Shown here: positions 1,719-20,159 of the stretch, piece by piece
How the letters are laid out: each line of letters starts with the position of its first letter
Position numbering within the stretch: position 1 is the stretch's first letter
From: a virus
DNA: 21,023 bases
Virus record (IMG/VR): IMGVR_UViG_3300000405_000074
Location: 1-21,023 of that record
Direction: 5' to 3' (one strand)
Translations under genes and position numbers: made by a program
Notes under the pieces: generated by a model
The model's input: only the letters and a program-made list of their open reading frames with translations
What the model was told of the DNA's origin: nothing
The model's database searches: none

Positions 1719-2603
1719 ATGGCTAACCAATTTGGTATTGATCTGGGCCAGATGTACCGCACTTCCGAAGCTATAAAGGGTTCCCGGCAGACTCGAAAAA
1801 GCAATGAGCTGACAATGCAGCTGGAAAAAAAGGACAGGGAAAGCGCTCGCCAAAGAGGCCAAACGCTTAACCAGTTGCGCTCCCGCGTAGCCGCAGGTGG
1901 TGACGATGGGGAAACCGCAGAGCGTGAGCTTATTGCTTTTGCACCAGAAGAAGCCACCAAGTTGCAGGAAGCGTTTAAAAACATGGACGATCGACAGCGC
2001 ACAGAAATGGAAGACAAGGTGGAAACCCTGGGCCGTATTGCCGCGTTTGTCATGGACGGAGGAACGCCGGAGGAACAAAACCAGCGTTACCAGCGTGCGC
2101 GGACAAACATGAGCCCGGAAATTGCCGCCAATATGCCAGAAGAATACGATCCCAACTTTGTGCAAATGGGGCTGGCCCGCGCGCGTGAGCTGGACGACAT
2201 GCTGAAAAACCCGGAGAAGATCACTTTTGGAGGTAAAGATCGCCTGTATAAAGATGGCAATATGCTGGAATCAACCACCAGTAATGCTTTTTTGAAAGGC
2301 CAAGCTGGCGGATCTGGCAGCGATTTCAAATCATCCGATGAAAGCCTCATGTTCCGCCAAGCCGGGGAATTATTGGGCGGTATCTTCGATCAACAGGGCA
2401 ACCTGCAAAACCTGGACCCGGACCAACGCTCAAAAGTACAGGCCATTACCACCAGGGCCGCGCAGCTTTTCCGTGATGGCGAGACAGGCACACGCTCACA
2501 ATCAGTAACTGAGGCCGCCAGACAGCTGGGCATAAGCGTGCAGAACCTTCAGGGTGGCGGTAGTATGGATCGCAACCAATTACTCGATATGTACAGCCAG
2601 TGA
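1719..2603 (+). CDS. Probable phage DNA ejection / internal virion protein
   Basis: This 294-residue hydrophilic protein is mostly predicted helix by eye. It is rich in Q, E, R and K, with many short stretches of LxxxxRARELDD type, and a more flexible G/S-rich segment near residues 190-205 (QAGGSGSDFKSSDES). The motif 'MSPEIAANMPEEYDPNFVQMGL' (about residues 127-148) and the terminal GGSMDRNQLLDMYSQ are in the style of the second and third ejection proteins of P22-like phages, which assist passage of DNA through the envelope. There is no signal peptide or clear membrane span. It follows the gp7-like gene by 8 bp and precedes the giant gene by 7 bp, so the three form one translational unit. 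I recognise the type from composition and position rather than from a diagnostic motif. Confidence 0.6.
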   Translation: MANQFGIDLGQMYRTSEAIKGSRQTRKSNELTMQLEKKDRESARQRGQTLNQLRSRVAAGGDDGETAERELIAFAPEEATKLQEAFKNMDDRQRTEMEDKVETLGRIAAFVMDGGTPEEQNQRYQRARTNMSPEIAANMPEEYDPNFVQMGLARARELDDMLKNPEKITFGGKDRLYKDGNMLESTTSNAFLKGQAGGSGSDFKSSDESLMFRQAGELLGGIFDQQGNLQNLDPDQRSKVQAITTRAAQLFRDGETGTRSQSVTEAARQLGISVQNLQGGGSMDRNQLLDMYSQ

Positions 2604-2610
2604 GGTAGTA

Positions 2611-5600
2611 ATGAGCGAAAACCAGCAGCCTTCCAAGGATCAGTTACTGAATGCGCTTGAGAGGGCGCACCTTGCGGGTGACACCGAAGGAGCAAAGGAG
2701 CTGGCCCGCTGGCACAACGAGATTTACCAGCCACAACCGGAGCCAGAGGTAGCGCAGGAAGGTCCGGGGATGCCGCCGCTAAACCTTCAGCCTGATACTG
2801 GAAGCAAGATTGCCGATGCTGGTCGCCGTGGTTCAGATTCTTCTATCGGTCCCGCAAACGATCCCGGAACTGGCCTGACAGCCGAAGAAATGGCCGCAAC
2901 GCCGCAACCGTCAGATCAATCAACTGTGGCGAATACTTCAGAGCAAGTAGCGCTGAACAGGAACCTGCTAAAAGAACAGTTCCCTGAACAATACGAATCG
3001 CCTTCAGCAAGCCCGGCAAGATCGACTCCTGGAAAGCCAGAGCAGGAATCACCGTCATTTAATGCTGCCCGTGGCGCAGTAGAGCGATCAGGTGATCTTG
3101 CGGCCGGTTTAGGCACAAGCATAAACACCGCGGCACAGGCCGCAGAAGATAAATTCGGAGTGGGTGGACTGGTGTGGGATGGCGAAGGCCTGATCCCAAA
3201 GTACCTCAATGCACAAGACTACTCTGACTTTTTGGCAGAAGGCGGATCAGACCTTGGGGCCGTTGCGACAGATAATCTGAAAAATATTGATGCCGGTTAT
3301 GTTCCCGAAAACACTTGGGAGTCTGTTAAGGCAGAGTTTTCGGAAGGTGGCGTTTTTAGCGCAAGCGCCTATGGGGAGGTTTTAGCCTACGGATTTGAGC
3401 AGGGAATAAAATCTGTCCCTGATATGGTTGCCGTCACTTTGTCGCTTCCCGCTTATGTGATTGCACGATCTGGTGAAATTGGTGAAACCCGAGCCCAAAA
3501 CAAGGGCAAAGAAAAAGCCGAATTGACTGACATAGTTGAAGCAGCGCCCTTTGCGCTTGGCTCCGCCATATTGGAAAGAATTGGCGCAAGAGGAATAACC
3601 CAAGCCGGGGCCGAAGCGTTTGGCGCAGCAGCCTTAAAGCGTGGAGTCAAGGCAGCTGCAAAGCGTATCGCAGCAGCCGGGGGCTCCGCGACACTGCGAG
3701 AGTCAGGAACAGAGTTTGTTCAGGAGGGCATACTTGAATATCTTGGTGAGCGATTCGGAACCGATGCAAAACTCGATGTTGCCGAAGCGTTTGACCGAGG
3801 CCTTGCGGGCCTAGTTGCTGGTGGAACCTTTGGTGGTGCAGTGGGCACCAGTGTTGCAACTGGTAGAGAGATCGCCCGGCCATCCCAAGCGGCAGAGTTA
3901 GGACAAGCGCTAAACGAGGGTGTCGATAACGCCGATTTTGTGCCGGCAGACCAGGCTGTTACGGATAGTTTAGACCCTTCCCGCGCGCAGGTGGAACAAA
4001 CACAGGCATCGCAGCGCCCGAGCATGGCCGAGCTTGTGTCACAAAAGATGAAAGAGCGTGGTTTTGACTTTACGCCGCGACCAGGGCAAATGCCGCCGGG
4101 CATTAATGTGCCTTTTCAGCCTGCGCAGTCACAGCAACAAGAACAAACAGTTCCTGTAGAAACTGAACGCCAACAAAATACAGAACAGCGTGAAAAAGAA
4201 ATTGTGCCAGAAGAATCGCAAACCCTGGACGTTTACGCAGAAGTTCAATCAAACGGATCTTACACTGTGCTTACTACGCCAGCCGGGCAACCGTTGGACG
4301 TAAGCCCTGCGCAGAATGCGCGCATTGAGCCCGTAGCCACAAGTGTTCCTATTGAGGCGCACCGTTCACTAAAAACCAACGCAGGTCGTGAGTCTGTAAA
4401 AACACTGAAACGCAGCTACAAGAACGCTGCAGTGTCTGGCCAGCCTGTAACCGGTAACAAAGATCGTTCAAGCAAAATTACTGAGCAAAAAAAGGATGCA
4501 GAAAAAGGAAAGGTTGGCGGAACTGTTGGCAGTGGTGAAGTAAAACTGACTGCAACGGGCAGAAAAACCACACCAGTACCAAAGATAAAAACGGACACGC
4601 CCAGAAAATCAACAAGCTCCGTTAAGAATATTGAAAAATGGCTTATAGAAAACGCTGTGGAAGAAGCCAAAGCAAGAGGTGACAATTTCAACCTTCGCCA
4701 ATTTGAAGGAATAGACCTTAAAAACTTGAGCCAGGCAGACAAAGATTCCGCTGAACAATACCTGTTTGGCGATAATCAGCCGCCTGTAATACCGTCAATT
4801 TTGAAAGATATTGGAAGCGAGGCGCAGCAAAATGCACCTACAGAAGTGGATAGCAGCAAGGACTTCAGAGCCCTGCAAAGCCGGATTGATAATATCAACA
4901 AGGAAATTGACGCCGAAAGAATTCGCGTTAAGTCCGAATCAGTAACCAGAGCAATCAATAACAGCCAACTAAACGACCAGCAAAAGCAGGAATTGTTACG
5001 CCAGCTGCCAGAGGAAAGCACCAATGAACCTACAGAACTGGATCAACAAGGCCAGGATCCACTGGCAGGAGAACCGGCCAAAGTTTTACCAGAGCCTGAA
5101 GACACAGAGGACACTGGAACCGATGCTGAAACAGGCAGCGGAACAAACGTACCAGCAGGTGGACGAGCTGGAACAAGCCGGGTTCCAGCCGGACGAGGCG
5201 TACCAGATGGTACGGGAGAAATACCTGTTTCCCCCGGGCGAACCGGAGAGCGAGCAGATGGACAGCAACGGGCCGGCGATCCTGAACAGCGCCCTGCAGA
5301 CAATGAGCCGGACACTGGAAGTGGAGAACCCGCAACCCGAGGATCAGAGGCAAACGTAGATGCGACAGAAAAAGCGGCAAAAGAAGCGCCAACGCCAAAG
5401 GGCGCAACAACGCAAAGATCAAAGCCAGCAGGTGAGCGCCCGGACAAGTACTTCACGCTAACGCCTGAAATGAACATTGGCGCTGGCGGGGCCAAGACCA
5501 AGTTTAAGAACAACCTGCAAGCCATACAGACACTAAAGCAGTTGATCGAAGAAGGGCGTCAGGCTACGCCGGAGCAGCAGCGGACCCTTGCCGGCTACGT

Positions 5601-8600
5601 TGGGTTTGGTGGTATCCCGCAGGCGTTTGTCGGTGATGGTGGCAAAATTACCAAGGGCTGGGAGAAAGAGGTAAAGCAACTGCAGGAGGCATTGACCGAT
5701 GCAGAATATGACGCGGCTCGACGCAGCACTCAGGATGCTCACTACACTAGCCCTGAAATTGTGTCCGAAATATGGAATGCCGTTAAGAATATGGGATTCC
5801 AGGGTGGCCGCGTGCTGGAGCCTTCTGTGGGAACGGGAAACTTCCTGGGCCTTATGCCTGGTGGCGTGCGATCAAAAAGCAGCATTGCCGGGGTGGAGCT
5901 GGATCATATCACCGGGGGCATTGCCCAAAAACTCTATCCCGGAGCCAACATACAGGCGCCATTAGGCTTCCAAGAGTTCACCATGCCGGACAATTACTTC
6001 GATCTGGCCATTGGTAACCCGCCGTTTGGCAGTCAGAAACTGTATGACGGCAAGCGCAAAGCCTTGTCGAAAATGAGCATCCACAACTACTTCTTTGCCA
6101 AGTCGATGGCGGGGCTCAAGCCCAATGGCGTGCTGGCCATGGTGGTATCTAGCCGCCTGATGGATGGCAGCAACAAGATGGCGCGCGATTACCTGGCTGA
6201 ACGTGGGGATCTATTGGGCGCCGTGAGACTGCCCAACAATGCTTTCCTGAAAAATGCCGGTACCCAAGTCACCACTGACATTATTTTCATGCGCAAGCGT
6301 GCGGAAGGTGAGCAGGCAACGGGTAATTCGTGGTCCGTGGTGAACACGATTAAGGACGCCAAGGGCATTGATGTTCCGCTGAATGAATACTTCGACCGCA
6401 ATCCGTCGATGATGCTTGGCGAATGGGGCGCCTACGGCTCGATGTACGGGCAAAACGAACCTGCACTGGTAGCGAGGGAGGGGCAAGACACCAACGCCTT
6501 GCTACGCGAAGCACTGGCCAGCTTGCCAAAAGACTTTATGACCAAGGCAGAGACTGACGCTGTATCTGAAGAAGTGCAGCTGCCAACCAGCATTGAGAAC
6601 GTGAAAGTGGGCAGCATGTTCCTCGATGGCGATCAGATCAGCATTCGCCTTGAAAGCGAGATGGGCAAAGAGCGATCGGAGCCCGTGGATATGCCGAGCA
6701 AGAAAGCGGAAGACCGAGTGCGCGGGCTGATTAAAGTTCGTGACGTGTTCGCAGATCTACGCAAGGCGCAGCTTACTGACAACGTGAAGGACGAGTCGCT
6801 GGCGGTATTACGTGACCGCTTAAATCGCACCTATGACCAGTTTGTGAGCAAGAACGGGCCAATAAACCTGGATGCAAACAAGCGACTGTTCCGGGATGAC
6901 CCAACGTGGCCGCAGCTGGCGGCACTGGAAGAATCATTCGACAAAGGCATAAGCGCAACCGTTTCAAAGAAAACCGGGGAAACCGCACGCAACCCAAGCG
7001 CCAAAAAGGCCGCTATCTTCCGTACTCGCACGCAGCAGCCTTACAAGGCGCCGGACAAAGCCAGTACAGCGAAGGACTCATTAACCGCCAGCCTGTCGGA
7101 GAAAGGCCGGGTGGATATGGCTTACATGAGCCAGCTGTACGGTAAGACCGAGAGCGCTATTGTTGCCGAGCTGGGTGATTTGGTTTTTGAGAGCACGCCT
7201 AACAACTGGGAATCCCGTGACGAATACCTGTCTGGCAACGTCAAAGGCAAGCTGGCCATGGCCGAGCGCATGGCCAAAGACACGCCGCGGTACCAGCGCA
7301 ACGTCGACGCACTGAAAGATGTGCAGCCAGAGGACATTGAAGCCGTCGATATCCGCGTGAAGACAGGGGCTCACTGGTTGCCGCCAGAGGTGGTGACCGC
7401 CTTTGTTAACCACATTCTGGGTAACGAAACCGGAAAAGCTGTTTACAACCCTGTATTGGCCAAGTGGTCAATTAGTGGTGGGGCACGTGATGCGGCCGCA
7501 ACGCAATACGGTACCGACCGCTCAACTGTTAAAGACGTTTTGAATGCAGCGGTAAACGAAAAGAGCATTGCTATTCGAGATCCCATTGGCAACAAAGAAA
7601 CAGTGCTCAATGAATCCGCGACCAACGCCGCAAACGAGAAAGTAAACCGGGTGAAGGCAGAGTTCCGCCGCTGGGTATGGTCAGACGATACCCGCCGGGA
7701 AATGTTGACCAGGCTCTATAACGACACGTTCAATACGGATCGGGTGCGCGAGTATGACGGCTCACACCTGACATTTCCGGGCAAGGTAGGCGACGACATT
7801 CTAAAGTTGAAACCGCACCAGGCTAATGCCGCGTGGCGCATTGTTCAAAGCGGTACCACGTTGTTGGATCACGTTGTTGGATCGGGTAAAACCTTCACTA
7901 TGATTGCCGGTTCTATGGAGCTCCGCCGCACCGGACGCGCCAAGAAGCCTATGTTTGTGGTACCCAACCATCTTGTGGGCCAGTGGGCTGAGGACTTTAC
8001 CAAGCTGTACCCAAACGCCAACATTCTGGCCGCCACCAAAAGAGACTTTGAGAAAGGCAACCGTAAGCGCTTGTTTGCCCGCATTGCTACCGGGGACTGG
8101 GACGCCGTTATTGTGGCGCATTCGTCGTTTGGAAAAGTTGAAATGGACGCCGAGTTCCAGGAGCGTTTCATCAACCAGCAAATCCGCGACATCGATACAG
8201 CCATAGCCACCATCCGGGATCAGGAGGGCAAAAGTTCACGCTCAGTCAAAGACAGCGAAAAGCAAAAAGAACGCCTACAGGAGCGATTGAAGCGCTTATT
8301 TGATTCGGAAAACAAAGACGACAACCTGACGTTTAACGAACTGGGTGTGGATGCGCTGTTTTTGGATGAAGCGCACGAGTTTAAAAACCTGGGGTTTGCC
8401 ACCGGCATGACCCGCGTGGCTGGCCTGGGAGATCCAAAGGGAAGCCAGAAAGCCGCTGACATGTTTATGAAGGTGCAATCAATCATGGAGCGCACTGGCG
8501 GCAACAATGTGATCTTTGCCACCGGCACGCCTATCAGCAACACCATGGCCGAGATGTACACGGTTCAGCGCTTCCTGGACTACCAGACCCTGCAAGACCA

Positions 8601-11600
8601 GGGCATTGCGCACTTTGATGCTTGGGCAAAAATGTACGGGGAAGTGGTCACGGATTGGGAGCTATCACCCACGGGCAGCTACAAGCTGAACAGCCGGTTC
8701 AGCAAGTTTGTGAATTTGCCTGAGCTGATGCAGCGGTACCTGACGTTTGCCGACGTAATAAACCGCGATGATATTAAGAGCCTGCCGGTACCCAAGATAA
8801 AAGGCGGAAAGCCGAACAACATTATTGTTGAGCGCAGTGAAGACCAGGCGGAGTACATTGGTGTAGCCGTGAAAGACGAGCGCGGCAACGAAGTGTATCC
8901 GAAAGATTCACTGGTCTATCGTGCTGAAAACCTGCCAAAGAAGCCGGAAAAAGGCCAGGACAACATGCTCAAGATTATGAGCGATGCGCGTAAGGCCGCA
9001 TTGGATATGCGCCTGATTGACCCGGTACTGTATGGCGACAATCCCGATAGCAAGATCAACGAGGCCGCTGGCCGAATCAAAACCCTTTACGACAAGTGGA
9101 ATGACGACAAGGGCGCACAGCTGGTATTCATTGACCTAAGCACGCCCAAGGGCGCAAAAACACGGGAAGCTAACCGCATACGCGATTTGGTACAGCGCTC
9201 AGAGAACGGTGAAGATGCCGCAACTTTGCAGCTGGATAACATGAGCCCTGACGAGTTCGAAGCGATTGACGGTGATTTCAGCGTGTATGACGACTTGCGC
9301 CAGAAGCTGATTAACCTGGGTATTGCAGAATCTGAAATAGCGTTTATTCACGACGCCAACACCGATATGCAAAAAGCAGAACTGTTTGCCAAGGTGCGCA
9401 CGGGCCGCATCCGGGTAATGCTGGGATCTACCGCAAAGATGGGCGCCGGCATGAACGTACAGACCCGACTGGTGGCATTGCACCACATGGATGCGCCGTG
9501 GCGCCCTTCGGACCTTGAGCAGCGTGAAGGCCGCATAATCCGCCAGGGTAACGTGCTGTATGACCGTGACCCGAAAGGCTTTGAAATCGTGATTAACCGC
9601 TACGCGACCAAGCAAACGCTGGACAGTCGTATGTGGCAGACGATAGAAACCAAGGCCCGGTTTATTGAGCAGGTGCGCAAAGGCAACACCAGTACCCGCG
9701 AGGTTGAAGACCTTGGCATTGAGTCATCTAACGCCGCAGAAATGAAAGCCGCATCCAGCGGTAACCCGCTTGTTCTGGAAGAAATGGACCTTCGCCAGAA
9801 AGTGAGAAAACTGGAACAGGCAGAAGAAGAACACGATCGCGAGCAGTTTCGGGTGCGTGACGCTATTCGCCGGGAAAAAAGCATTGTTGAGCGTGGCAAG
9901 GATCGTTTGCTGAAGTTTGCGCAGGACGTGAAGAAAGCGAACGCCGCGCCGAAAGATTTCACCATGACCGTGAACGGCAAGAAGTTCGACAAACACAAGA
10001 ATGCCGGGCAAGAGATATTGGCCGAGGCTGTGAAAATGGCAAAATCCGGTACCGAATCCAGAGTCATTGGCAGCTATGCCGGCTTTGATGTGTCGCTTGA
10101 AAACATCGACGGTACCCGGTTTGTGATATCGATCGACGGCGCACTGGAGCACCAGGTTGATATTCAAGATTTGGACAAGGCAGACGCCACCGGTACCGCG
10201 CGCCGTGTCACCAACACTGTATCGGCCATTGACGGGCAGGCAAAACAGGCCGCCGCCAGGGTAAGGCTGGCAGAAAAAGACTTGCCGCAGCTGGAAGCGC
10301 AGGTGAAGGAGTGGGAACAAGCCGAGGAGCTGGCCAAAGCGAAAAGCAGGCACCAGCTGGTTATTGCCGAGTTGCAGCCGAAGAAAAAAGAGTCACAAGA
10401 GGGCGAGGTAGACAGCGACATAAGTTCTATGGCCACTCCCATAGATTCGCCAATGCCGCAATGGCGGGCCACATACCGGATACTGGGAGTAAGCCCAAGG
10501 CGCCCAGAGTCCGGAGTCATAACGGTAGGTGATCGAAATGTACGCCTTAAGCAAGAGGATGCGCCTACGCGCCGTGAAGGCATCCGAACCATGGTAATAG
10601 ACCTTATTGGCACAAGGCTTTATCAGCAAAAAATAAAAGGAAAATCAAAACTTGGGTTCTATCGTAAATCCAATAGCGAAGTAAGAATTGCAAACTTCGA
10701 TGATGTTGAAGTGATGGCGCACGAGCTGGCGCACTTTCTGGACATGCACTATTCGTTCAACGAGCGCTTTACCCGGGCCTACCGTGATCCGAGATACCTC
10801 GAAGAAGTTCAGGCCCTGTCCTACACCAGCAAGGATAAGCTAAAGACAACAGAGGGATTTGCCGAGTTCGTGCGCCTGTGGTTGACGCAGTACAGCGAGG
10901 CCAAGTCCCGGGCGCCGTTGTTCACTCAGAAGTTTGAAACGGTCCTGTCCAACGACAAGCCGCTGCAAAAGAAGCTGACCAACATGCAGGAAGAAATGCA
11001 CCGATGGTTTGGCCAGGGCGAATTGGCGCAACTGTATGCCGCTACAAGCGGCAACCAGTATACAAAAGCACAACAGCTTTCATTGATGATTTCCCGGCGC
11101 CCGGGACAGATGTGGCGGCAGCAGTATGTTGACAAGATCCACGCCGCCAAGGTCATGGGCCGCACTATAAACGGTGACATGCGCACCGCCAGCGAAGACG
11201 CTTACAAGCAACTTCAGCTGCTAAACGGCATTGAGGGCATAAGCCAGGAGTCGTTCAAGCACGGCGCTATAGTCATAAATGAGAATGGAGATATCACGTT
11301 CAAGGGCCCATCTCTACGTGATGTTTGGTCAAAGTCTTTGAAGTCGGGACCGAAAGTAGTGCGCGAGCAGGAACTGTATTGGGCCGCACGCCGCGCCAAG
11401 GAGCTCGCCGGCCAAGGCCGCGAGAACCGGATCAGCAAGGGAATGATTGACGAGGGCCTGGCCCTGGCGCGAAAGCACCCTCATTTTGTGCAGGCGTTCA
11501 GTGACTACCAGGAATACCGTAAGAACATGATGGAATTTTACGTGGATTCCGGCTATGTGACGCCCGATGCAGCTAAGGCAATGCTTAATCGTAACCGCAA

Positions 11601-13791
11601 CTACGTCCCTTTCCATCGTGTGGTTGAGAGCGTCAACGACACCTACACCGCAGGTTCTGGCTTTCAGCGCCTCAAGGGCGGGCAGCAAAACATAAAGCCA
11701 ATATTCGACAACACGATGATGCAGGAACAGCGGCATATGTATGCCGCACTCAAGGCCAGGGCCCTGCGAACGCTGTACGAGGACGCCTTGAACAGCCAGG
11801 ACAACGTGTTCCTTTCAAAGATTGGGCCAGACAGCAAACCGGTAAGAGCAGCGCTTGACCAGATGGTGTCAAAGACAGCCGGCGCCATGGCAGACCTGGG
11901 GATTACCATTTCAGAAGATGGAGTGTTCACAGGTGACGGTGAAACGATTGTCGACAAGGCAGATATTGAAGCCTACTACGAAAAAAACTCAGAAGAATTG
12001 ATGTTCTGGACGTTCGGACACAAGCCAAAGACCAGCGAAACGATGGTCGATAGCTTTATAGACCGACGCGGCAAGCGAGTATGGATTGAGATCCAGAAGG
12101 AAAACGAATTGTTGGTCGACATGCTTGACGGCATGGATAACGTGGCGATTCCAGAAGGATCCCTTGGCACAGCTGTTAAGTTTGCCATGGCCGTGAAGAA
12201 GTTTCAGACACTGACCATTACCAGCATGGCTCAATTTGCCGGGCCAAACGCAATACGTGACGCACAGCAGGCCTTCGTGCTGTCTGGTGGTAAGTTCGTT
12301 CCTGTGTGGGACACCATGAAAGGATTTGGAGCACAGCTTCACGCCTTGGTCAGCTCAAAAAGTGCATTGTCAGAGATGAGAGCGCAAGGCGGTCCCGTGG
12401 CCGGACGTGTAGGGACGTTTTATAACGACAACTGGGGGCTGGCGTCAGATTCGCCCGCTGCCCCACGCACGCCATTCTTCTACCCGACTCAATGGGCGAG
12501 CTCAGTGCTCGACATTTACATGGCTATTGTCGATTCGTTTGAGATCGCAACCCGTGTTGGATTCTATCTCAGGATGCGGCCGATTGTTGGCGCCAGGGAA
12601 GCTGCATGGCAGGCCAGGGAGATCAGCACCGACTTCCGTAAGCACGGAACCTACGCCCCGTGGGTGCTACTGCAACGGACAGTGCCATTCCTTGGCGCCT
12701 ATGTGCAGTCGGTCGATCGAGACATCAGGGCCCTGGCCGAGAACAAAGGGGAGATGACGCTGGCCAACCTGGTTAAAACCGAAAGCGGGCGGGCAACCTT
12801 GGCCGATATCAAGGTGCGAGTCTGGCTGGCCGGCAGCCTGATAATCACCATAACCGCCGTTCTAGCACTGTTGAACGACGATGAGGAGCGGTACCGGGCA
12901 CTGACACCGGACCAGAAGGTACGCTTCTACCATTTCTTCATTGGTGGACGTCACTACACTTTGCCGAAAGGCCACGGGTTTATTCAGCTTATTGGCCAGG
13001 GCACAGAATCGGCAATCGATGTTATAGGCCAACAGGAATCCAAAGCCGCTCAGAAGACCATGGCGTTCGCCGTTGCCTATCACTTTGGAATGGACGCTAC
13101 GCCAGGCATTATCAACCCTGTGGCAGAGATCCTACTGAACCGCACGTTCACAGGGGCGCCAGTGGTGTCTCGCTATGCAAAGGACCGGGAGCCGCGCTAT
13201 CAGTACGACGATCGCACGCCGCTGATCTACGTCAACGTGGGCCGGGAGCTGAACATCAGTCCGGACAAGGCTCACCACCTTATGCGGGGCTACACTGGCT
13301 ACCTGAGCGACTTCGTAGACGAGGCCAGTGAAAACCTGCTGTGGGACAACACTGCCTGGGGTGAACGACCCTTTGTCCGCGACTTTGCGAAGATGGCGGG
13401 TAAGCAGTTTAATCCGCGTGAGGTTCCGTATAGGACCAAGTGGACCGTTGGCTACTACGAGCTTCGGCAGCGGGCCTCGACAGCCCAGGCAAACCTTTCG
13501 TTTTTGGGCAAAGCACAGGCAATTCGTGACCAGCAGCCGCTTAAAAATTTCGCGTCAAATGAAGTCAATGCTTCCCTGGTGGCTATCAACAAAGTGTTTT
13601 CACAAATTGATTCTGCGTTCTCAAATCAAGGCGAGGTAATCGCCAGCATAAAATACAACCCAGAGCTGTCCGCCAAAGAAAAGGAGCGGGATATTGAATC
13701 CTGGTACGCGCAAAAGAACGAGGTTATGAAAGACGTGTATCAGCAAGTTGTTAAAGAAATTGAAAAAGTGGAAGCCAAGGTTTCACAATAA
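2611..13791 (+). CDS. Giant polyvalent virion protein: ejection-like N-terminus, DNA N6-adenine methyltransferase, SNF2-type helicase, zincin-like segment, LPD38-like C-terminus
   Basis: The protein has 3726 residues from ATG 2611, preceded by GAGGTAG at 2602-2608; the frame is open from further upstream but lacks a comparable ribosome site. Regions in order: residues 1-60 resemble ejection-protein N-termini (ALERAHLAGDTEGAKELA). Residues about 155-420 are a Gly/Ala-rich, partly hydrophobic helical region ending in GLAGLVAGGTFGGAVG. Residues about 420-945 are a low-complexity linker. From about 950 a methyltransferase has motif I EPSVGTGNF (from 1070) and catalytic NPPF (1136-1139), the N6-adenine class. 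The SNF2-type helicase has Walker A GSGKT (1757-1761), DEAH (1919-1922), TGTPISN (1971-1977) and motif VI QREGRIIRQGN (2304-2314). A charged coiled coil follows near 2390-2440. An HELAH zinc-binding motif (2704-2708) has a possible third ligand Glu2752. The C-terminus holds a hydrophobic span near 3404-3420 within a region like LPD38 of phage polyvalent proteins. P1 DarB, a virion methylase-helicase, protects injected DNA from type I restriction, so a similar in-virion defence role is inferred. Over residues about 806-916 the frame overlaps a second ORF and its codon use becomes abnormal. Confidence 0.9.
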   Translation: MSENQQPSKDQLLNALERAHLAGDTEGAKELARWHNEIYQPQPEPEVAQEGPGMPPLNLQPDTGSKIADAGRRGSDSSIGPANDPGTGLTAEEMAATPQPSDQSTVANTSEQVALNRNLLKEQFPEQYESPSASPARSTPGKPEQESPSFNAARGAVERSGDLAAGLGTSINTAAQAAEDKFGVGGLVWDGEGLIPKYLNAQDYSDFLAEGGSDLGAVATDNLKNIDAGYVPENTWESVKAEFSEGGVFSASAYGEVLAYGFEQGIKSVPDMVAVTLSLPAYVIARSGEIGETRAQNKGKEKAELTDIVEAAPFALGSAILERIGARGITQAGAEAFGAAALKRGVKAAAKRIAAAGGSATLRESGTEFVQEGILEYLGERFGTDAKLDVAEAFDRGLAGLVAGGTFGGAVGTSVATGREIARPSQAAELGQALNEGVDNADFVPADQAVTDSLDPSRAQVEQTQASQRPSMAELVSQKMKERGFDFTPRPGQMPPGINVPFQPAQSQQQEQTVPVETERQQNTEQREKEIVPEESQTLDVYAEVQSNGSYTVLTTPAGQPLDVSPAQNARIEPVATSVPIEAHRSLKTNAGRESVKTLKRSYKNAAVSGQPVTGNKDRSSKITEQKKDAEKGKVGGTVGSGEVKLTATGRKTTPVPKIKTDTPRKSTSSVKNIEKWLIENAVEEAKARGDNFNLRQFEGIDLKNLSQADKDSAEQYLFGDNQPPVIPSILKDIGSEAQQNAPTEVDSSKDFRALQSRIDNINKEIDAERIRVKSESVTRAINNSQLNDQQKQELLRQLPEESTNEPTELDQQGQDPLAGEPAKVLPEPEDTEDTGTDAETGSGTNVPAGGRAGTSRVPAGRGVPDGTGEIPVSPGRTGERADGQQRAGDPEQRPADNEPDTGSGEPATRGSEANVDATEKAAKEAPTPKGATTQRSKPAGERPDKYFTLTPEMNIGAGGAKTKFKNNLQAIQTLKQLIEEGRQATPEQQRTLAGYVGFGGIPQAFVGDGGKITKGWEKEVKQLQEALTDAEYDAARRSTQDAHYTSPEIVSEIWNAVKNMGFQGGRVLEPSVGTGNFLGLMPGGVRSKSSIAGVELDHITGGIAQKLYPGANIQAPLGFQEFTMPDNYFDLAIGNPPFGSQKLYDGKRKALSKMSIHNYFFAKSMAGLKPNGVLAMVVSSRLMDGSNKMARDYLAERGDLLGAVRLPNNAFLKNAGTQVTTDIIFMRKRAEGEQATGNSWSVVNTIKDAKGIDVPLNEYFDRNPSMMLGEWGAYGSMYGQNEPALVAREGQDTNALLREALASLPKDFMTKAETDAVSEEVQLPTSIENVKVGSMFLDGDQISIRLESEMGKERSEPVDMPSKKAEDRVRGLIKVRDVFADLRKAQLTDNVKDESLAVLRDRLNRTYDQFVSKNGPINLDANKRLFRDDPTWPQLAALEESFDKGISATVSKKTGETARNPSAKKAAIFRTRTQQPYKAPDKASTAKDSLTASLSEKGRVDMAYMSQLYGKTESAIVAELGDLVFESTPNNWESRDEYLSGNVKGKLAMAERMAKDTPRYQRNVDALKDVQPEDIEAVDIRVKTGAHWLPPEVVTAFVNHILGNETGKAVYNPVLAKWSISGGARDAAATQYGTDRSTVKDVLNAAVNEKSIAIRDPIGNKETVLNESATNAANEKVNRVKAEFRRWVWSDDTRREMLTRLYNDTFNTDRVREYDGSHLTFPGKVGDDILKLKPHQANAAWRIVQSGTTLLDHVVGSGKTFTMIAGSMELRRTGRAKKPMFVVPNHLVGQWAEDFTKLYPNANILAATKRDFEKGNRKRLFARIATGDWDAVIVAHSSFGKVEMDAEFQERFINQQIRDIDTAIATIRDQEGKSSRSVKDSEKQKERLQERLKRLFDSENKDDNLTFNELGVDALFLDEAHEFKNLGFATGMTRVAGLGDPKGSQKAADMFMKVQSIMERTGGNNVIFATGTPISNTMAEMYTVQRFLDYQTLQDQGIAHFDAWAKMYGEVVTDWELSPTGSYKLNSRFSKFVNLPELMQRYLTFADVINRDDIKSLPVPKIKGGKPNNIIVERSEDQAEYIGVAVKDERGNEVYPKDSLVYRAENLPKKPEKGQDNMLKIMSDARKAALDMRLIDPVLYGDNPDSKINEAAGRIKTLYDKWNDDKGAQLVFIDLSTPKGAKTREANRIRDLVQRSENGEDAATLQLDNMSPDEFEAIDGDFSVYDDLRQKLINLGIAESEIAFIHDANTDMQKAELFAKVRTGRIRVMLGSTAKMGAGMNVQTRLVALHHMDAPWRPSDLEQREGRIIRQGNVLYDRDPKGFEIVINRYATKQTLDSRMWQTIETKARFIEQVRKGNTSTREVEDLGIESSNAAEMKAASSGNPLVLEEMDLRQKVRKLEQAEEEHDREQFRVRDAIRREKSIVERGKDRLLKFAQDVKKANAAPKDFTMTVNGKKFDKHKNAGQEILAEAVKMAKSGTESRVIGSYAGFDVSLENIDGTRFVISIDGALEHQVDIQDLDKADATGTARRVTNTVSAIDGQAKQAAARVRLAEKDLPQLEAQVKEWEQAEELAKAKSRHQLVIAELQPKKKESQEGEVDSDISSMATPIDSPMPQWRATYRILGVSPRRPESGVITVGDRNVRLKQEDAPTRREGIRTMVIDLIGTRLYQQKIKGKSKLGFYRKSNSEVRIANFDDVEVMAHELAHFLDMHYSFNERFTRAYRDPRYLEEVQALSYTSKDKLKTTEGFAEFVRLWLTQYSEAKSRAPLFTQKFETVLSNDKPLQKKLTNMQEEMHRWFGQGELAQLYAATSGNQYTKAQQLSLMISRRPGQMWRQQYVDKIHAAKVMGRTINGDMRTASEDAYKQLQLLNGIEGISQESFKHGAIVINENGDITFKGPSLRDVWSKSLKSGPKVVREQELYWAARRAKELAGQGRENRISKGMIDEGLALARKHPHFVQAFSDYQEYRKNMMEFYVDSGYVTPDAAKAMLNRNRNYVPFHRVVESVNDTYTAGSGFQRLKGGQQNIKPIFDNTMMQEQRHMYAALKARALRTLYEDALNSQDNVFLSKIGPDSKPVRAALDQMVSKTAGAMADLGITISEDGVFTGDGETIVDKADIEAYYEKNSEELMFWTFGHKPKTSETMVDSFIDRRGKRVWIEIQKENELLVDMLDGMDNVAIPEGSLGTAVKFAMAVKKFQTLTITSMAQFAGPNAIRDAQQAFVLSGGKFVPVWDTMKGFGAQLHALVSSKSALSEMRAQGGPVAGRVGTFYNDNWGLASDSPAAPRTPFFYPTQWASSVLDIYMAIVDSFEIATRVGFYLRMRPIVGAREAAWQAREISTDFRKHGTYAPWVLLQRTVPFLGAYVQSVDRDIRALAENKGEMTLANLVKTESGRATLADIKVRVWLAGSLIITITAVLALLNDDEERYRALTPDQKVRFYHFFIGGRHYTLPKGHGFIQLIGQGTESAIDVIGQQESKAAQKTMAFAVAYHFGMDATPGIINPVAEILLNRTFTGAPVVSRYAKDREPRYQYDDRTPLIYVNVGRELNISPDKAHHLMRGYTGYLSDFVDEASENLLWDNTAWGERPFVRDFAKMAGKQFNPREVPYRTKWTVGYYELRQRASTAQANLSFLGKAQAIRDQQPLKNFASNEVNASLVAINKVFSQIDSAFSNQGEVIASIKYNPELSAKEKERDIESWYAQKNEVMKDVYQQVVKEIEKVEAKVSQ
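5024..5359 (+). CDS. Candidate overlapping gene nested out of frame in the giant gene
   Basis: This 111-residue ORF lies in the +2 frame relative to position 1, wholly inside the giant gene. Its ATG follows AGAGGAAAG (5010-5018), leaving 5 bases before the start and 9 after the GAGG core. The peptide looks like a normal small soluble protein: an amphipathic helical part with HWQENRPKFYQSLKTQ, then ELEQAGFQPDEAYQMVREKY and LFPPGEPE, and a hydrophilic tail. By hand count, G/C at third codon positions is 89 of 111 in this frame, but only 38 of 110 in the giant gene's frame over the same bases; a sample of the giant gene elsewhere (6001-6060) gave 12 of 20. The giant protein there is a P/G/T/E/R-rich linker using GGA, CGA, CCA and ACA codons. 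Protein-like sequence begins exactly at the ATG. I do not recognise a named family with certainty. Confidence 0.7.
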   Translation: MNLQNWINKARIHWQENRPKFYQSLKTQRTLEPMLKQAAEQTYQQVDELEQAGFQPDEAYQMVREKYLFPPGEPESEQMDSNGPAILNSALQTMSRTLEVENPQPEDQRQT

Positions 13792-13800
13792 CCAAAATGC

Positions 13801-13854
13801 GCATGGCGAAATGCCATAGGCTATAATCAGCCAAAGACAACCAGGGGAAAGATC
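13801..13854 (+). promoter_or_regulatory. Candidate promoter and ribosome site for the tailspike gene
   Basis: The 63-bp gap after the giant gene holds a perfect -10 hexamer TATAAT at 13822-13827. A small hairpin ATGGC-GAAAT-GCCAT lies just upstream (13803-13817). No good -35 box stands 17 bp away (GCGCAT), and there is no TGn extension, so the promoter is weak or factor-dependent if real. AGGGGAAAG at 13843-13851 is a good ribosome site for the ATG at 13855. A separate tailspike promoter would allow the spike to be made in larger amounts than the ejection proteins. Confidence 0.4.
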
Positions 13855-16284
13855 ATGGCAGTATCAATTATTGGCCCAAAATTCTACGCATTCGACAACG
13901 AAACCGGTAACCCGTTGGCTTTCGGCAAGGTCTACACCTACCAGGCAGGCACCAACACGCCAAAGGCCACGTTTCAGAGCGAGGATGCTGTAACCGAAAA
14001 CACCAATCCGGTTGTCCTGAATGGCGCCGGGTACGCTGACATCTACCTCATTGGCAGCTACAAGATCGTTGTAAAGGACGCAGACGGTGTTGATGTCTGG
14101 ACAGCGGACCCCGTAAGCGATCCGTCCGGGCTTCAGAAAGAATGGCAGAGTGAGCGAGCCGCAACGCAGGTGTCGCCGACCAGCTTCACATTGGTGGGCA
14201 ATTACACCGATGTTTACCAGGCCGGTAAAGCGGTGAAGATGGACGACGCAACCATCATTTACGGCCATATCGACAGTGTTCAATACCTGAACGGGAATAC
14301 TGTTGTTGAAGTTACGGCGGATTCGTCACTGACTTCAGACCTTAGCCGGGCTTGGGTTAGCCTTTTGACAAGGAGAGGCTTGCCAGAGTCTGTAGGAAGG
14401 TTTATCACTGCGACAAGCATTGCAGAAATTGCAGCCTACTCCGCGCCGGTTGGCTATGTTTTTAGCCTTAATGCTGGCGGGCGATCTGGTGTTTTTGACG
14501 TTGTTGCTGGTGACTTCTCCACTGAGCTGGCTGCGGATACTTTAAACGGTGTTTATGTTGGCTTGGCGGATAATCCAACGGGCACCAATAAAGTGGCAAA
14601 GCGCCGGGGAAGCACGGCTTTTAACGTCAATTGGTTTGGGGCTATTGGTAACGGATCTTACGATAACTCAGATTCTTTTCAGGCGTGTGCAAACCTTGCG
14701 TCTGCTTCTTCTATTGCGTTAAACCAAGTTGTTACGGTAAATGTTCCGGCTGGCGATTACAGACTATCTAGCCGGGCTGTTTTTGATGTTTCTTTAGGGG
14801 CGGGAGCTAGGGGTATAGTCCTTAACGGTGCAGGAATGCACTCTACAAGGCTGGTTGCTGATGAGTCGAATACTGATGGATGTATTAAAATGACATCAGA
14901 CGGCAACATTGAACTTTTTGAAGTTAATGAGATTTCATTTGTTAGTACGTTAAATTATGATTCAGCAACAAGCAACGGAGTAGCACTACTTATACAATCT
15001 ACGCTGACACTCGGTGATGGCGGCTGGGGAGAGCAAGTTAATAGAACTGTTTATATTAACAAGGTTTTTATAGGGCCATATGGAGACACTATTTTAAAAA
15101 TAAATGGTGGAGAAGTTGGCAACTTTTCAAAAGGCATTGAAATACGAAACAAATGGTGGCCCGTAATTCAAGACAGTTTTTTACTTGGAAGCGATGAACA
15201 GTTACTAGAAAATATGACAGGCCGTAAACATGCAATTCACTGCTATAAGTGCTACTCCCCAGAGTTTATTCACAATCAAATTGTTAAGTTTTGGGAGAAC
15301 GGAATATTTTGCGAACAAAACGAAGACGAAGATTTTAGGTTACAAGATTCCTTCTTAGTTGGCCAGTATAAGGGTTTTGTCCTAATTCATCCTCAAAGTA
15401 GTAAAGATAATTTATATGAACCCGGTGGAGCAATTTCTAATAACCACATATATTCTCACAAAGCCGGTTTGCATATTAGGTATCACAGACAAGTTTTAAT
15501 AAACAATAACTACTTTTACGTTCCTAGAGGGAATGAGTTAAACCAAGGTCAGACAGGGCTGCCTTCTAGTATTTGGTTGGAAGGCACTGCGGATATAACT
15601 ATAAATGACAATCAATTTTTAGAACCTGGATTTTATGTTGATGAGGGTAATAGCTCAGTTGGTATAAAATGTACATATAGGGCAATCGGCGTAAATATTC
15701 TTGACAATCATTTTAATTCCGGAGGGACAGGGGTTTATCTTTCATCAGATATATTAGATTCTGTTATTATTGAGGGTAACAACTTTGGAGGAATGACAGT
15801 ATGGGGTAGTATTGTAAAAAAGGTTAATGACAAATCTGAGGTTGCAATATTTTCAAACACTTGGTTTGTGCCAGGCTTTGGGAGTGCAACAAGAACAACA
15901 GAAAGCATGCGAGCTCCAAGCAACGGTGCGGCAATAGCTGATATTATTTCATCAACACGCTCAGATTATGCAACTAAATCAGACGCTAAAATACTTGACA
16001 GATCAGTTTATGGTACTCTTTCTGATGGATCATCTCAGGGTATTACCGAGGCTTTTGGGTTTGACGACAACACAGAAGCTGCTCCTAAACTTTACAAAAA
16101 GATATTTTTTAAGACTTCTGAAGGTATTACTGCAACACTTAAAATTACACCCCCTGATGTAGCTGGAGAAACTTGTTTAACTCTTTTATGGTTTAATGGC
16201 ACAAGTTTAATTATTAAACCTGTTCTAGTTGGGGATGCTGATAGCGGAGGAACTGGCTATAGAGCTTTAATTATAGGAAATTAA
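13855..16284 (+). CDS. Tailspike protein with beta-helix receptor-binding domain
   Basis: This is an 809-residue protein. Residues 1 to about 110 form a small beta-rich virion anchor (FYAFDNETGNPLAFGKVYTY, then ATFQSEDAVTENTNPVVL), of the kind found at the N-terminus of many podovirus tail fibres and spikes. A linker runs to about residue 255. At 258-275, NWFGAIGNGSYDNSDSFQ matches the entry turn of pectate-lyase-3 type right-handed beta-helices. Further on come many short repeats such as ISNNHIYSHKAGLHI, VLINNNYFYV and VNILDNHF, the rung pattern of a parallel beta-helix. Such spikes bind, and often cut, surface polysaccharide; catalytic residues cannot be assigned by eye. The base composition changes inside the gene: 14101-14160 is 62% GC while 15121-15180 and 15661-15720 are 35% and 32%, so the receptor-binding part was probably acquired separately from the anchor. 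Confidence 0.9.
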   Translation: MAVSIIGPKFYAFDNETGNPLAFGKVYTYQAGTNTPKATFQSEDAVTENTNPVVLNGAGYADIYLIGSYKIVVKDADGVDVWTADPVSDPSGLQKEWQSERAATQVSPTSFTLVGNYTDVYQAGKAVKMDDATIIYGHIDSVQYLNGNTVVEVTADSSLTSDLSRAWVSLLTRRGLPESVGRFITATSIAEIAAYSAPVGYVFSLNAGGRSGVFDVVAGDFSTELAADTLNGVYVGLADNPTGTNKVAKRRGSTAFNVNWFGAIGNGSYDNSDSFQACANLASASSIALNQVVTVNVPAGDYRLSSRAVFDVSLGAGARGIVLNGAGMHSTRLVADESNTDGCIKMTSDGNIELFEVNEISFVSTLNYDSATSNGVALLIQSTLTLGDGGWGEQVNRTVYINKVFIGPYGDTILKINGGEVGNFSKGIEIRNKWWPVIQDSFLLGSDEQLLENMTGRKHAIHCYKCYSPEFIHNQIVKFWENGIFCEQNEDEDFRLQDSFLVGQYKGFVLIHPQSSKDNLYEPGGAISNNHIYSHKAGLHIRYHRQVLINNNYFYVPRGNELNQGQTGLPSSIWLEGTADITINDNQFLEPGFYVDEGNSSVGIKCTYRAIGVNILDNHFNSGGTGVYLSSDILDSVIIEGNNFGGMTVWGSIVKKVNDKSEVAIFSNTWFVPGFGSATRTTESMRAPSNGAAIADIISSTRSDYATKSDAKILDRSVYGTLSDGSSQGITEAFGFDDNTEAAPKLYKKIFFKTSEGITATLKITPPDVAGETCLTLLWFNGTSLIIKPVLVGDADSGGTGYRALIIGN

Positions 16285-19019: not shown

Positions 19020-19315
19020 AAAGCACCATTCCTGAAACCGTCAAAGTCACTTTGCACATCCACCATTCCTCCTACGATAACGAGCCATACGTGTCAACCA
19101 GTGACATGAGTGAGTACGGCTACATTCTCCTGGGTACCGACACCGTTACTATCACGATCCCTGACGTTGATATTGTTCAGGCGGAAATCGACATGCTGAA
19201 CCGCCAGACCGTGAAGGTGCGTGAGGAATTTGGCAGGCAGCTTGCGATTCTTGATCGCCGAATCAGCGAGCTGACCGCACTGGAGTACAAGCCGGAGGAA
19301 AGCGACAGTGAGTAA
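19016..19315 (+). CDS. Small early phage protein of unknown function
   Basis: The protein has 99 residues. The frame is open further upstream, but the real start is ATG 19016, which overlaps the previous stop by 4 bp and has GGAG about nine bases upstream. The N-terminal half is beta-rich with alternating residues (VKVTLHIHHSS, YGYILLGTDTVTITIPD). The second half is a helix likely to form a coiled coil (VQAEIDMLNRQTVKVREEFG, then QLAILDRRISELTALE). I recall similar small proteins beside phage recombination genes but know no function. Its end overlaps the GTG start of the next gene by 8 bp, so the three genes are translationally coupled. Confidence 0.75.
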   Translation: MKSTIPETVKVTLHIHHSSYDNEPYVSTSDMSEYGYILLGTDTVTITIPDVDIVQAEIDMLNRQTVKVREEFGRQLAILDRRISELTALEYKPEESDSE

Positions 19316-20159
19316 TTTGGACCTGTGGAAATCCGTCGAAGAAACCGCGCCAGGCTACACCAAGACTGGTGACCTGGACGGCCGTAAGGTCACCAGCATC
19401 AACGGCACTTACATGGTGAAGCGCGCAACAGAGGCGTTTGGGCCAATCGGTAAGGGCTGGGGCTATGAGATCGAGGACGAGTCATTCCAGCCGGGCGCCA
19501 CGATTAAGCACGGCGGCGAAGATATCGGTACCGCGATCATGCACACGCTCAAGGTGCGGCTGTGGTACATGCAGGGTGACCAGAAATGTGAGGTGGTTCA
19601 CTTTGGCCACACGCCCTATATCCGGGGCACGCACTACGGCGCCATGACCGACTTTGACGCTCCCAAGAAATCCCTGACGGACGCTGTGAAGAAGTGCCTG
19701 TCCATGCTTGGATTCAGCGCTGATGTGTTCCTGGGCATGTATGACGATACCAATTACGTCGAAGCCGCGAAGATCAAAGAGAACGTGCGCAACGCCGACG
19801 ATGCCGAAGAAGAAATGGTCAAGGCGCGTACAGAGTTCAGCGAGTGGCTGAAGCGGGAAACCGAAACCTATGCCATGGTACCGAACGCGGCACCTCTACG
19901 GCTGATGTATCAGGGCCATCTAAGAAAAGCCGATCGCCAGTGTGCAGTGCTGGGTGTGGACTTTGAGAAGGTGAAAGCCCGGATTACAGAAGCGTACAAA
20001 GCGCAATACGACAAGCTGGTACCGGACGTTGATCTGGTTTGTCACGAGTGTGGAACCCCGGGCACTGGCAAGCCTCACAGCAAGTGCCCGGATTGTGGAA
20101 ACGCAAAAAGAAGCCCGGCAGAACCGGGCGAAAATGCACAACAAAAGGAAGGAAAATAA
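19308..20159 (+). CDS. Candidate single-strand-annealing recombination protein with C-terminal zinc ribbon
   Basis: This 283-residue protein starts at GTG 19308 with GGAGG ten bases upstream. The N-terminal domain holds INGTYMVKRATEAFGPIGKG, WGYEIEDESF, then a central beta region and FDAPKKSLTDAVKKCLSMLG, FSADVFLG. A 'FGPxGxGWxyE' entry followed by a late 'D-A-xKKCLSxLGFSADVFLG' helix is the layout of phage annealing proteins of the Rad52/Sak/ERF kind. The exact family is uncertain. Residues about 244-263 hold CHECGTPGTGKPHSKCPDCG, a four-Cys zinc ribbon, which is an unusual addition to that fold. Its place in an early operon next to a long coiled-coil protein fits a recombination or replication-repair role. 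An unrelated phage-specific family cannot be excluded. Confidence 0.65.
   Translation: MSNLDLWKSVEETAPGYTKTGDLDGRKVTSINGTYMVKRATEAFGPIGKGWGYEIEDESFQPGATIKHGGEDIGTAIMHTLKVRLWYMQGDQKCEVVHFGHTPYIRGTHYGAMTDFDAPKKSLTDAVKKCLSMLGFSADVFLGMYDDTNYVEAAKIKENVRNADDAEEEMVKARTEFSEWLKRETETYAMVPNAAPLRLMYQGHLRKADRQCAVLGVDFEKVKARITEAYKAQYDKLVPDVDLVCHECGTPGTGKPHSKCPDCGNAKRSPAEPGENAQQKEGK

Follow-up and report, generated by a model that had tools for sequence, protein, structure and literature searches.

A conserved gene nested out of frame within DarB-like methylase-helicase genes, with a putative TnpV-like product

An ORF of 111 codons that lies out of frame inside the gene for a giant phage methylase-helicase is very probably a real gene. 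It occupies positions 5024..5359 (plus strand) of the stretch of viral DNA analysed here, a 21,023-nucleotide portion of IMG/VR record IMGVR_UViG_3300000405_000074 that is referred to below as the window. It is well supported that the ORF codes for protein and that the gene is conserved in the same frame and at the same place over distant mobile elements. As judged from sequence profiles, its product is a TnpV-like (PF14198) protein, for which four helices are predicted. Over the overlap, the annotated protein is not the protected one; in many phages, and in some plasmids and bacterial chromosomes, evolution protects the protein in the hidden frame. The first-pass annotation, which had proposed the gene from the window alone, understated the case, as the arrangement recurs in methylase-helicase genes of phages, plasmids and chromosomes.

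To our knowledge, long same-strand nested genes in prokaryotes and phages have rarely been proven, and those cases are usually shallow. The gene described here is conserved from phages of Gammaproteobacteria to chromosomes of Verrucomicrobia, in one frame and in one place. No paper describing it was found in a literature search that did not cover subscription papers. What is new is an overlapping gene pair of unusual breadth and the involvement of a TnpV-like family.

The nested gene and its host gene

The host gene belongs to a plus-strand open frame of 3745 aa at 2554..13791. The ATG at 2611 (MSENQQPSKDQ...) is a likelier start than the GTG at 2554, because the preceding ORF ends at 2603 and the GTG start would overlap it; the gene is consequently taken as 2611..13791. 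It is placed among the DarB-like polyvalent proteins (Iyer et al. 2017, PMC5512222) on the grounds that an Eco57I-type methylase, an SNF2 helicase and an LPD domain are all on one polypeptide. All of the following features are on the plus strand. A linker rich in E, T, G and P (5023..5442) spans the nested gene and a short stretch after it. The methylase module has a conserved start (YFTLTPEMNIGAGGAKTKFKNN...GYVGFGGIPQAF; 5443..6582), which comes directly after the nested gene, and the Eco57I-type adenine methylase domain is at 5974..6210 (PF07669, 3e-10). SNF2/ResIII helicase and Helicase_C domains are at 7801..9549, and the large polyvalent protein domain LPD38 is at 12883..13332 (PF18857, 2e-27). 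Enzymes of the DarB-like class are thought to shield incoming DNA from restriction.

Two other genes in the window were noted in passing. One at 250-885 is sulfotransferase-like (PF03567, 7e-10) and adjoins a phage DNA ejection gene. The other, at 19308-20159, encodes a Rad52-like protein (PF04098, barely above the cut-off) whose C-terminus weakly matches a zinc ribbon.

The nested ORF starts with ATG, encodes a protein of 111 aa (MNLQNWINKARIHWQENRPKFYQSLK...REKYLFPPGE) and lies entirely within the giant open frame, offset by one base; its coordinates, start and register were re-derived and are those originally given. The strong and well-spaced Shine-Dalgarno sequence that had been claimed corresponds to a Shine-Dalgarno-like AGAGGA at 5010..5015 (plus strand), which ends 8 nt before the ATG. 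A recount of third-position G/C agrees with the reported contrast, with 89 of 111 in the nested frame and 38 of 111 at the giant third positions over the same bases. Outside the overlap, the GC3 of the giant frame is 0.59.

Taken alone, the length of the ORF and the fact that its frame is open are weak evidence. When the giant protein of this window was synonymously recoded, the nested frame was open in 48% of the trials. About two dozen minus-strand ORFs of 90-209 aa, apart from the nested ORF, are present in the window, and the giant gene has many ORFs of similar length in its other frames, as would be expected if this one were a chance open frame without a product. The nested ORF stands above chance because it is conserved in 21 phage records and because its pN/pS among relatives is 0.33 versus 1.6 in the giant frame. 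The pN/pS, codon-position and conservation results all contradict a chance origin, and conservation of the protein across phyla refutes it; we see practically no room left for it.

Selection on the two frames

Selection in both frames among relatives, one of the checks suggested in the first-pass annotation, was measured on 26 non-overlapping pairs with 68-97.5% DNA identity. In addition to the values for the nested and giant frames just given, pN/pS was 1.2 in the third frame, and the nested value was below the giant value in 25 of the 26 pairs. The counts are uncorrected, and pairs drawn from one clade are not fully independent of each other. Substitutions at the first, second and third positions of the nested codons numbered 253, 219 and 469, with third positions the highest. 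The pS of the giant frame drops from 0.46 upstream to 0.09 across the ORF and returns to 0.42 over the next 300 nt, a collapse that is limited to the ORF. These measurements bear out the claim that selection at the protein level acts on the nested frame and that the giant protein is merely linker there.

Simulations agree with this reading. When only the nested frame was under purifying selection (w 0.3), the values were 0.32 for the nested frame and 1.21 for the giant frame, whereas selection on the giant frame only gave 1.0-1.5 for the nested frame and did not reproduce the observed pattern.

The residues of the giant frame across the overlap behave as unselected, yet the frame stays open. 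When the nested proteins were written with random synonymous codons, the joint probability of an open giant frame was about 1e-57 over 36 clusters of nested sequences, with the probability floored at 0.0005 per cluster. The giant frame is open far beyond chance under recoding, and therefore readthrough is also selected.

Distribution of the nested gene

Another suggested check, a search of the 111-residue protein against viral sequences, was run with tblastn and matched 21 phage records at 40-53% identity, with E values down to 4e-26. The records represent 11 distinct named phages, LASTA and SJM3 being counted as one since they are identical over the nested region. Their hosts are Vibrio, Agrobacterium, Sinorhizobium, Erwinia, Klebsiella, Pseudomonas, Ochrobactrum and Microcystis. 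In all 11 phages, the homologue is inside a DarB-like giant gene in the same relative frame (giant +1), starts with ATG and is preceded by a Shine-Dalgarno-like sequence; the N-terminus is MNL in 10 of them. None of the 21 records annotates the nested gene separately. In Pseudomonas phage Itty13, the plus-strand open frame that holds the nested gene exceeds 4100 codons (4905-16163), and the record annotates three large minus-strand hypothetical proteins in its place, apparently on the wrong strand.

Alignment-based scans added 62 viral loci and 33 genome loci. In 94 of the resulting 107 loci, which include the window, the gene is nested in a frame of more than 1000 codons, and the relative frame is always the same. 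The 94 loci comprise 79 distinct DNA sequences in the 36 clusters mentioned above. The start is ATG in 74 of the 79 and GTG in five, and an SD-like core lies upstream of 74. That the nested gene has its own conserved initiation signals is well supported. A lack of any stand-alone homologue, together with a broken frame in relatives, would have refuted the gene; free-standing homologues exist and the frame is intact in related phages.

These initiation signals bear on the possibility that the nested frame is no separate gene and instead forms the C-terminal end of a +1 frameshift product that begins in the N-terminal part of the giant protein. In Sinorhizobium phage PBC5, an upstream ORF of 2197 codons shares the frame of the domain, and the profile phrog_938 ends in the domain, as this possibility would predict. 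However, an in-frame stop lies just two codons before the ATG in several members, and therefore no upstream frame can read into those members. The initiator Met and the SD-like core are conserved, and PBC5 is the sole case of its kind that was seen. We consider a frameshift product very unlikely. The PBC5 fusion itself (record positions about 8955-9309), in which the giant gene switches frame about 45 nt before the nested ATG and orf33 continues in frame into the small domain, may be real, a local split or a sequencing error; the last two are considered because no second case was seen and because the switch is so close to the ATG. The PHROG 938 profile, which ends in the small nested domain, is labelled as an endolysin.

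The search was also made through the methylase alone. The start of the methylase just downstream of the nested gene was aligned and used as the sole query, and the best 80 of 275 loci were returned, all of them viral. The small gene is nested at the same place and in the same frame in 76 of these best 80 of 275, about 0-570 nt upstream of the methylase domain. The other four (L215, L216, L241 and L246) have no profile match, yet each has a frame+1 ORF at the same place. Those of L215 and L216 have the selection signature of the nested family (0.38 vs 1.34) and look like divergent members. The 80 loci are not 80 independent events because phages of the earlier search recur among the records. 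The divergence of the small protein tracks that of the methylase (Mantel r 0.58; the highest of 500 permutations was 0.20).

The nearest published parallel is the HNH endonuclease hidden in the ShiLan domain (PMC11855218), an out-of-frame protein within a phage DNA methylase gene whose own frame remains open. The same logic could make the present gene a selfish homing insertion concealed out of frame, with the host frame reading through. This explanation is disfavoured, and we regard it as highly improbable. The ShiLan HNH is a patchy homing element without a Shine-Dalgarno sequence, whereas the gene described here has an SD-like sequence, is present in almost all of the nearby methylase loci in the set just described and diverges along with the methylase. 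Domain and profile searches with the nested protein gave no match to an endonuclease family.

Outside the phages, chromosomes of Verrucomicrobia encode methylase-helicases of 1.7 kaa that are without the phage N-terminal part. Their N-terminus is short and has a QL[DSE]LF-like motif, and the same small gene, again in the same frame, lies nested between it and the start of the methylase. In the methylase-helicases of L137-L142, this motif is directly upstream of the nested gene and resembles a sliding-clamp-binding peptide; comparable motifs (QFSLF, LDLF, QLNLF) occur in the plasmid-type enzymes. A relaxase-like gene, recognised by eye from sequence only, is near some of the Verrucomicrobia loci.

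In several plasmids, the arrangement recurs with divergent ORFs. A plasmid search with the window protein gave no matches, and one with a Verrucomicrobia member gave a single weak match, nested in a Streptomyces phage-plasmid. A related pair of frame+1 ORFs occurs on Burkholderia and Enterobacter plasmids, where the signature is weaker (0.65 vs 1.73). An Arthrobacter plasmid has a frame+1 ORF before the methylase-helicase that PGAP names 'TnpV protein', and the start of the helicase is annotated downstream of it. Annotation overlooks a gene that almost all near relatives carry and sometimes trims the start of the big gene because of it. A further type of frame+1 ORF is present in three Pseudomonadota loci (L263, with the ORF at 1235-1456, L264 and L289), where the values are 0.21-0.30 vs 1.6-2.2. 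Together with those of L253/L254, L215/L216, L257 and L157/L158, these small ORFs are mutually divergent, are at the same place and in the same frame before the methylase, and most have a coding signature; they are possibly further nested families. A frame+1 ORF was looked for and was absent in the plasmid-type loci L256, L259 and L260 and in the genome loci L265, L266 and L268, and therefore a nested ORF is not universal in methylase-helicases.

One candidate was excluded. In Streptococcus phage phi-SsuZKB4, a TnpV gene is beside an SNF2 gene; it is at the 3' end of that gene, at what looks like the junction of an inserted element.

The product and its possible role

The tie to TnpV (PF14198) rests on profile comparisons. 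Matches to PF14198 were obtained for 60 of 90 members (E <= 0.1), the best at 1e-8. A Fibrobacter member (L099) passes the curated cut-off (38.8 vs 27 bits), but the window protein, at 15.8 bits, is below it. A profile-profile comparison with TnpV by hhalign gave a probability of 76% and an E of 2e-5 over 49 columns. Like the TnpV of Tn4451-type mobilizable transposons, the nested proteins are about 110 aa long, reside on mobile elements and have a similar N-terminal half (W..A..HWKE..P..Y..L...G.L...L); unlike the classical TnpV genes encountered, which are free-standing, the nested family is inside a giant gene. In the AlphaFold2 model, residues 1-70 form four helices with high confidence (pLDDT about 92), and the tail is only weakly predicted. 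A fold search of the PDB found no match at E <= 0.001, one of a viral library found only the PBC5 protein itself, and a profile search of solved structures found only a designed helical repeat (E 0.025). PADLOC and NCBIfam gave no convincing match to the small proteins.

We lean somewhat towards the view that the small protein, made from its own start, is a partner of the methylase-SNF2 module. The role is inferred, as there are no expression, binding or mutant data. According to this proposal, ribosomes would initiate inside the giant mRNA, at the small gene that lies out of register by one base in the linker immediately before the methylase-SNF2 helicase module, and make a protein of ~110 aa with four predicted helices and a flexible acidic tail. 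The protein may be a cognate accessory factor of the methylase-helicase, e.g., a chaperone, inhibitor or subunit, which would hold the giant enzyme in a soluble or inactive state up to its packaging with the DNA and their joint entry into the cell. With one gene inside the other, the dose and inheritance of the partner would be coupled to its own enzyme. The co-occurrence and co-divergence described above fit this role but are no proof of a physical partner because physical linkage alone predicts both. The methylase-helicases that have no such ORF count against the role.

The main rival is that the nested gene is real and translated and that its function is unrelated to the methylase-helicase. 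The product would then be an independent mobile-element factor like TnpV acting, for example, in excision, anti-defence or DNA binding, and its gene would be in the linker for compactness or for protection from loss. The TnpV matches are in line with this, and the TnpV of Tn4451-type elements is a free-standing, postulated excision helper; that role is postulated only, from its similarity to lambda Xis (PMC3158075). Seven relatives (L084, L088, L090, L092, L095, L104 and L106) are free-standing, with no methylase within the fetched flanks, and therefore the small protein can exist alone. These copies, and one member that adjoins McrBC, suggest that the giant protein is not required for the function. 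However, the gene stays directly before the methylase in phages, in Verrucomicrobia chromosomal loci and in plasmids, and few of the loci selected through the methylase are without it. An independent factor is a serious possibility, though we think it probably not the right explanation.

If the small protein is a partner, as we prefer to think, it gives the DarB-like proteins a directly testable partner or regulator, and in either case the uncharacterised Pfam family TnpV gains a recurrent genetic context. A broader generalisation is more tentative, and we would not yet bet on it. The methylase-SNF2 'DNA-entry' enzymes of phages, plasmids and integrated elements may very widely carry an internal gene, always at +1, for a cognate small partner, with a pairing that predates the split of these elements and with several divergent families (TnpV-like, the L253/L254 plasmid type, the L263/L264/L289 type and the L215/L216 type). 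If true, few nested gene pairs known in prokaryotes would be as widespread or as old, and annotation would have missed this one systematically.

The small gene's frame is probably older than the giant frame over the overlap. This inference is based on the free-standing relatives and the unselected linker, with no rooted tree. Presumably, the giant frame was opened through the small gene when neighbouring coding regions were joined. As in overprinted viral genes (reviewed in PMC8227390), the overlap is on the same strand and one frame is loosened where the other is constrained; in those genes, however, the new frame is usually born inside the older gene, whereas here the small, independently known frame would be the older one. 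The account of the DarB-like proteins in PMC5512222 has neither an 'overlapping' gene nor TnpV in its text, and the nested gene is not described there.

In the Pseudidiomarina loci (L097 5974-6762 and L096 5974-6762), the nested protein has a relative with a hydrophobic, membrane-like C-terminal part fused to it, directly followed by an McrB-like AAA gene and McrC; the L096 copy has an in-frame stop.
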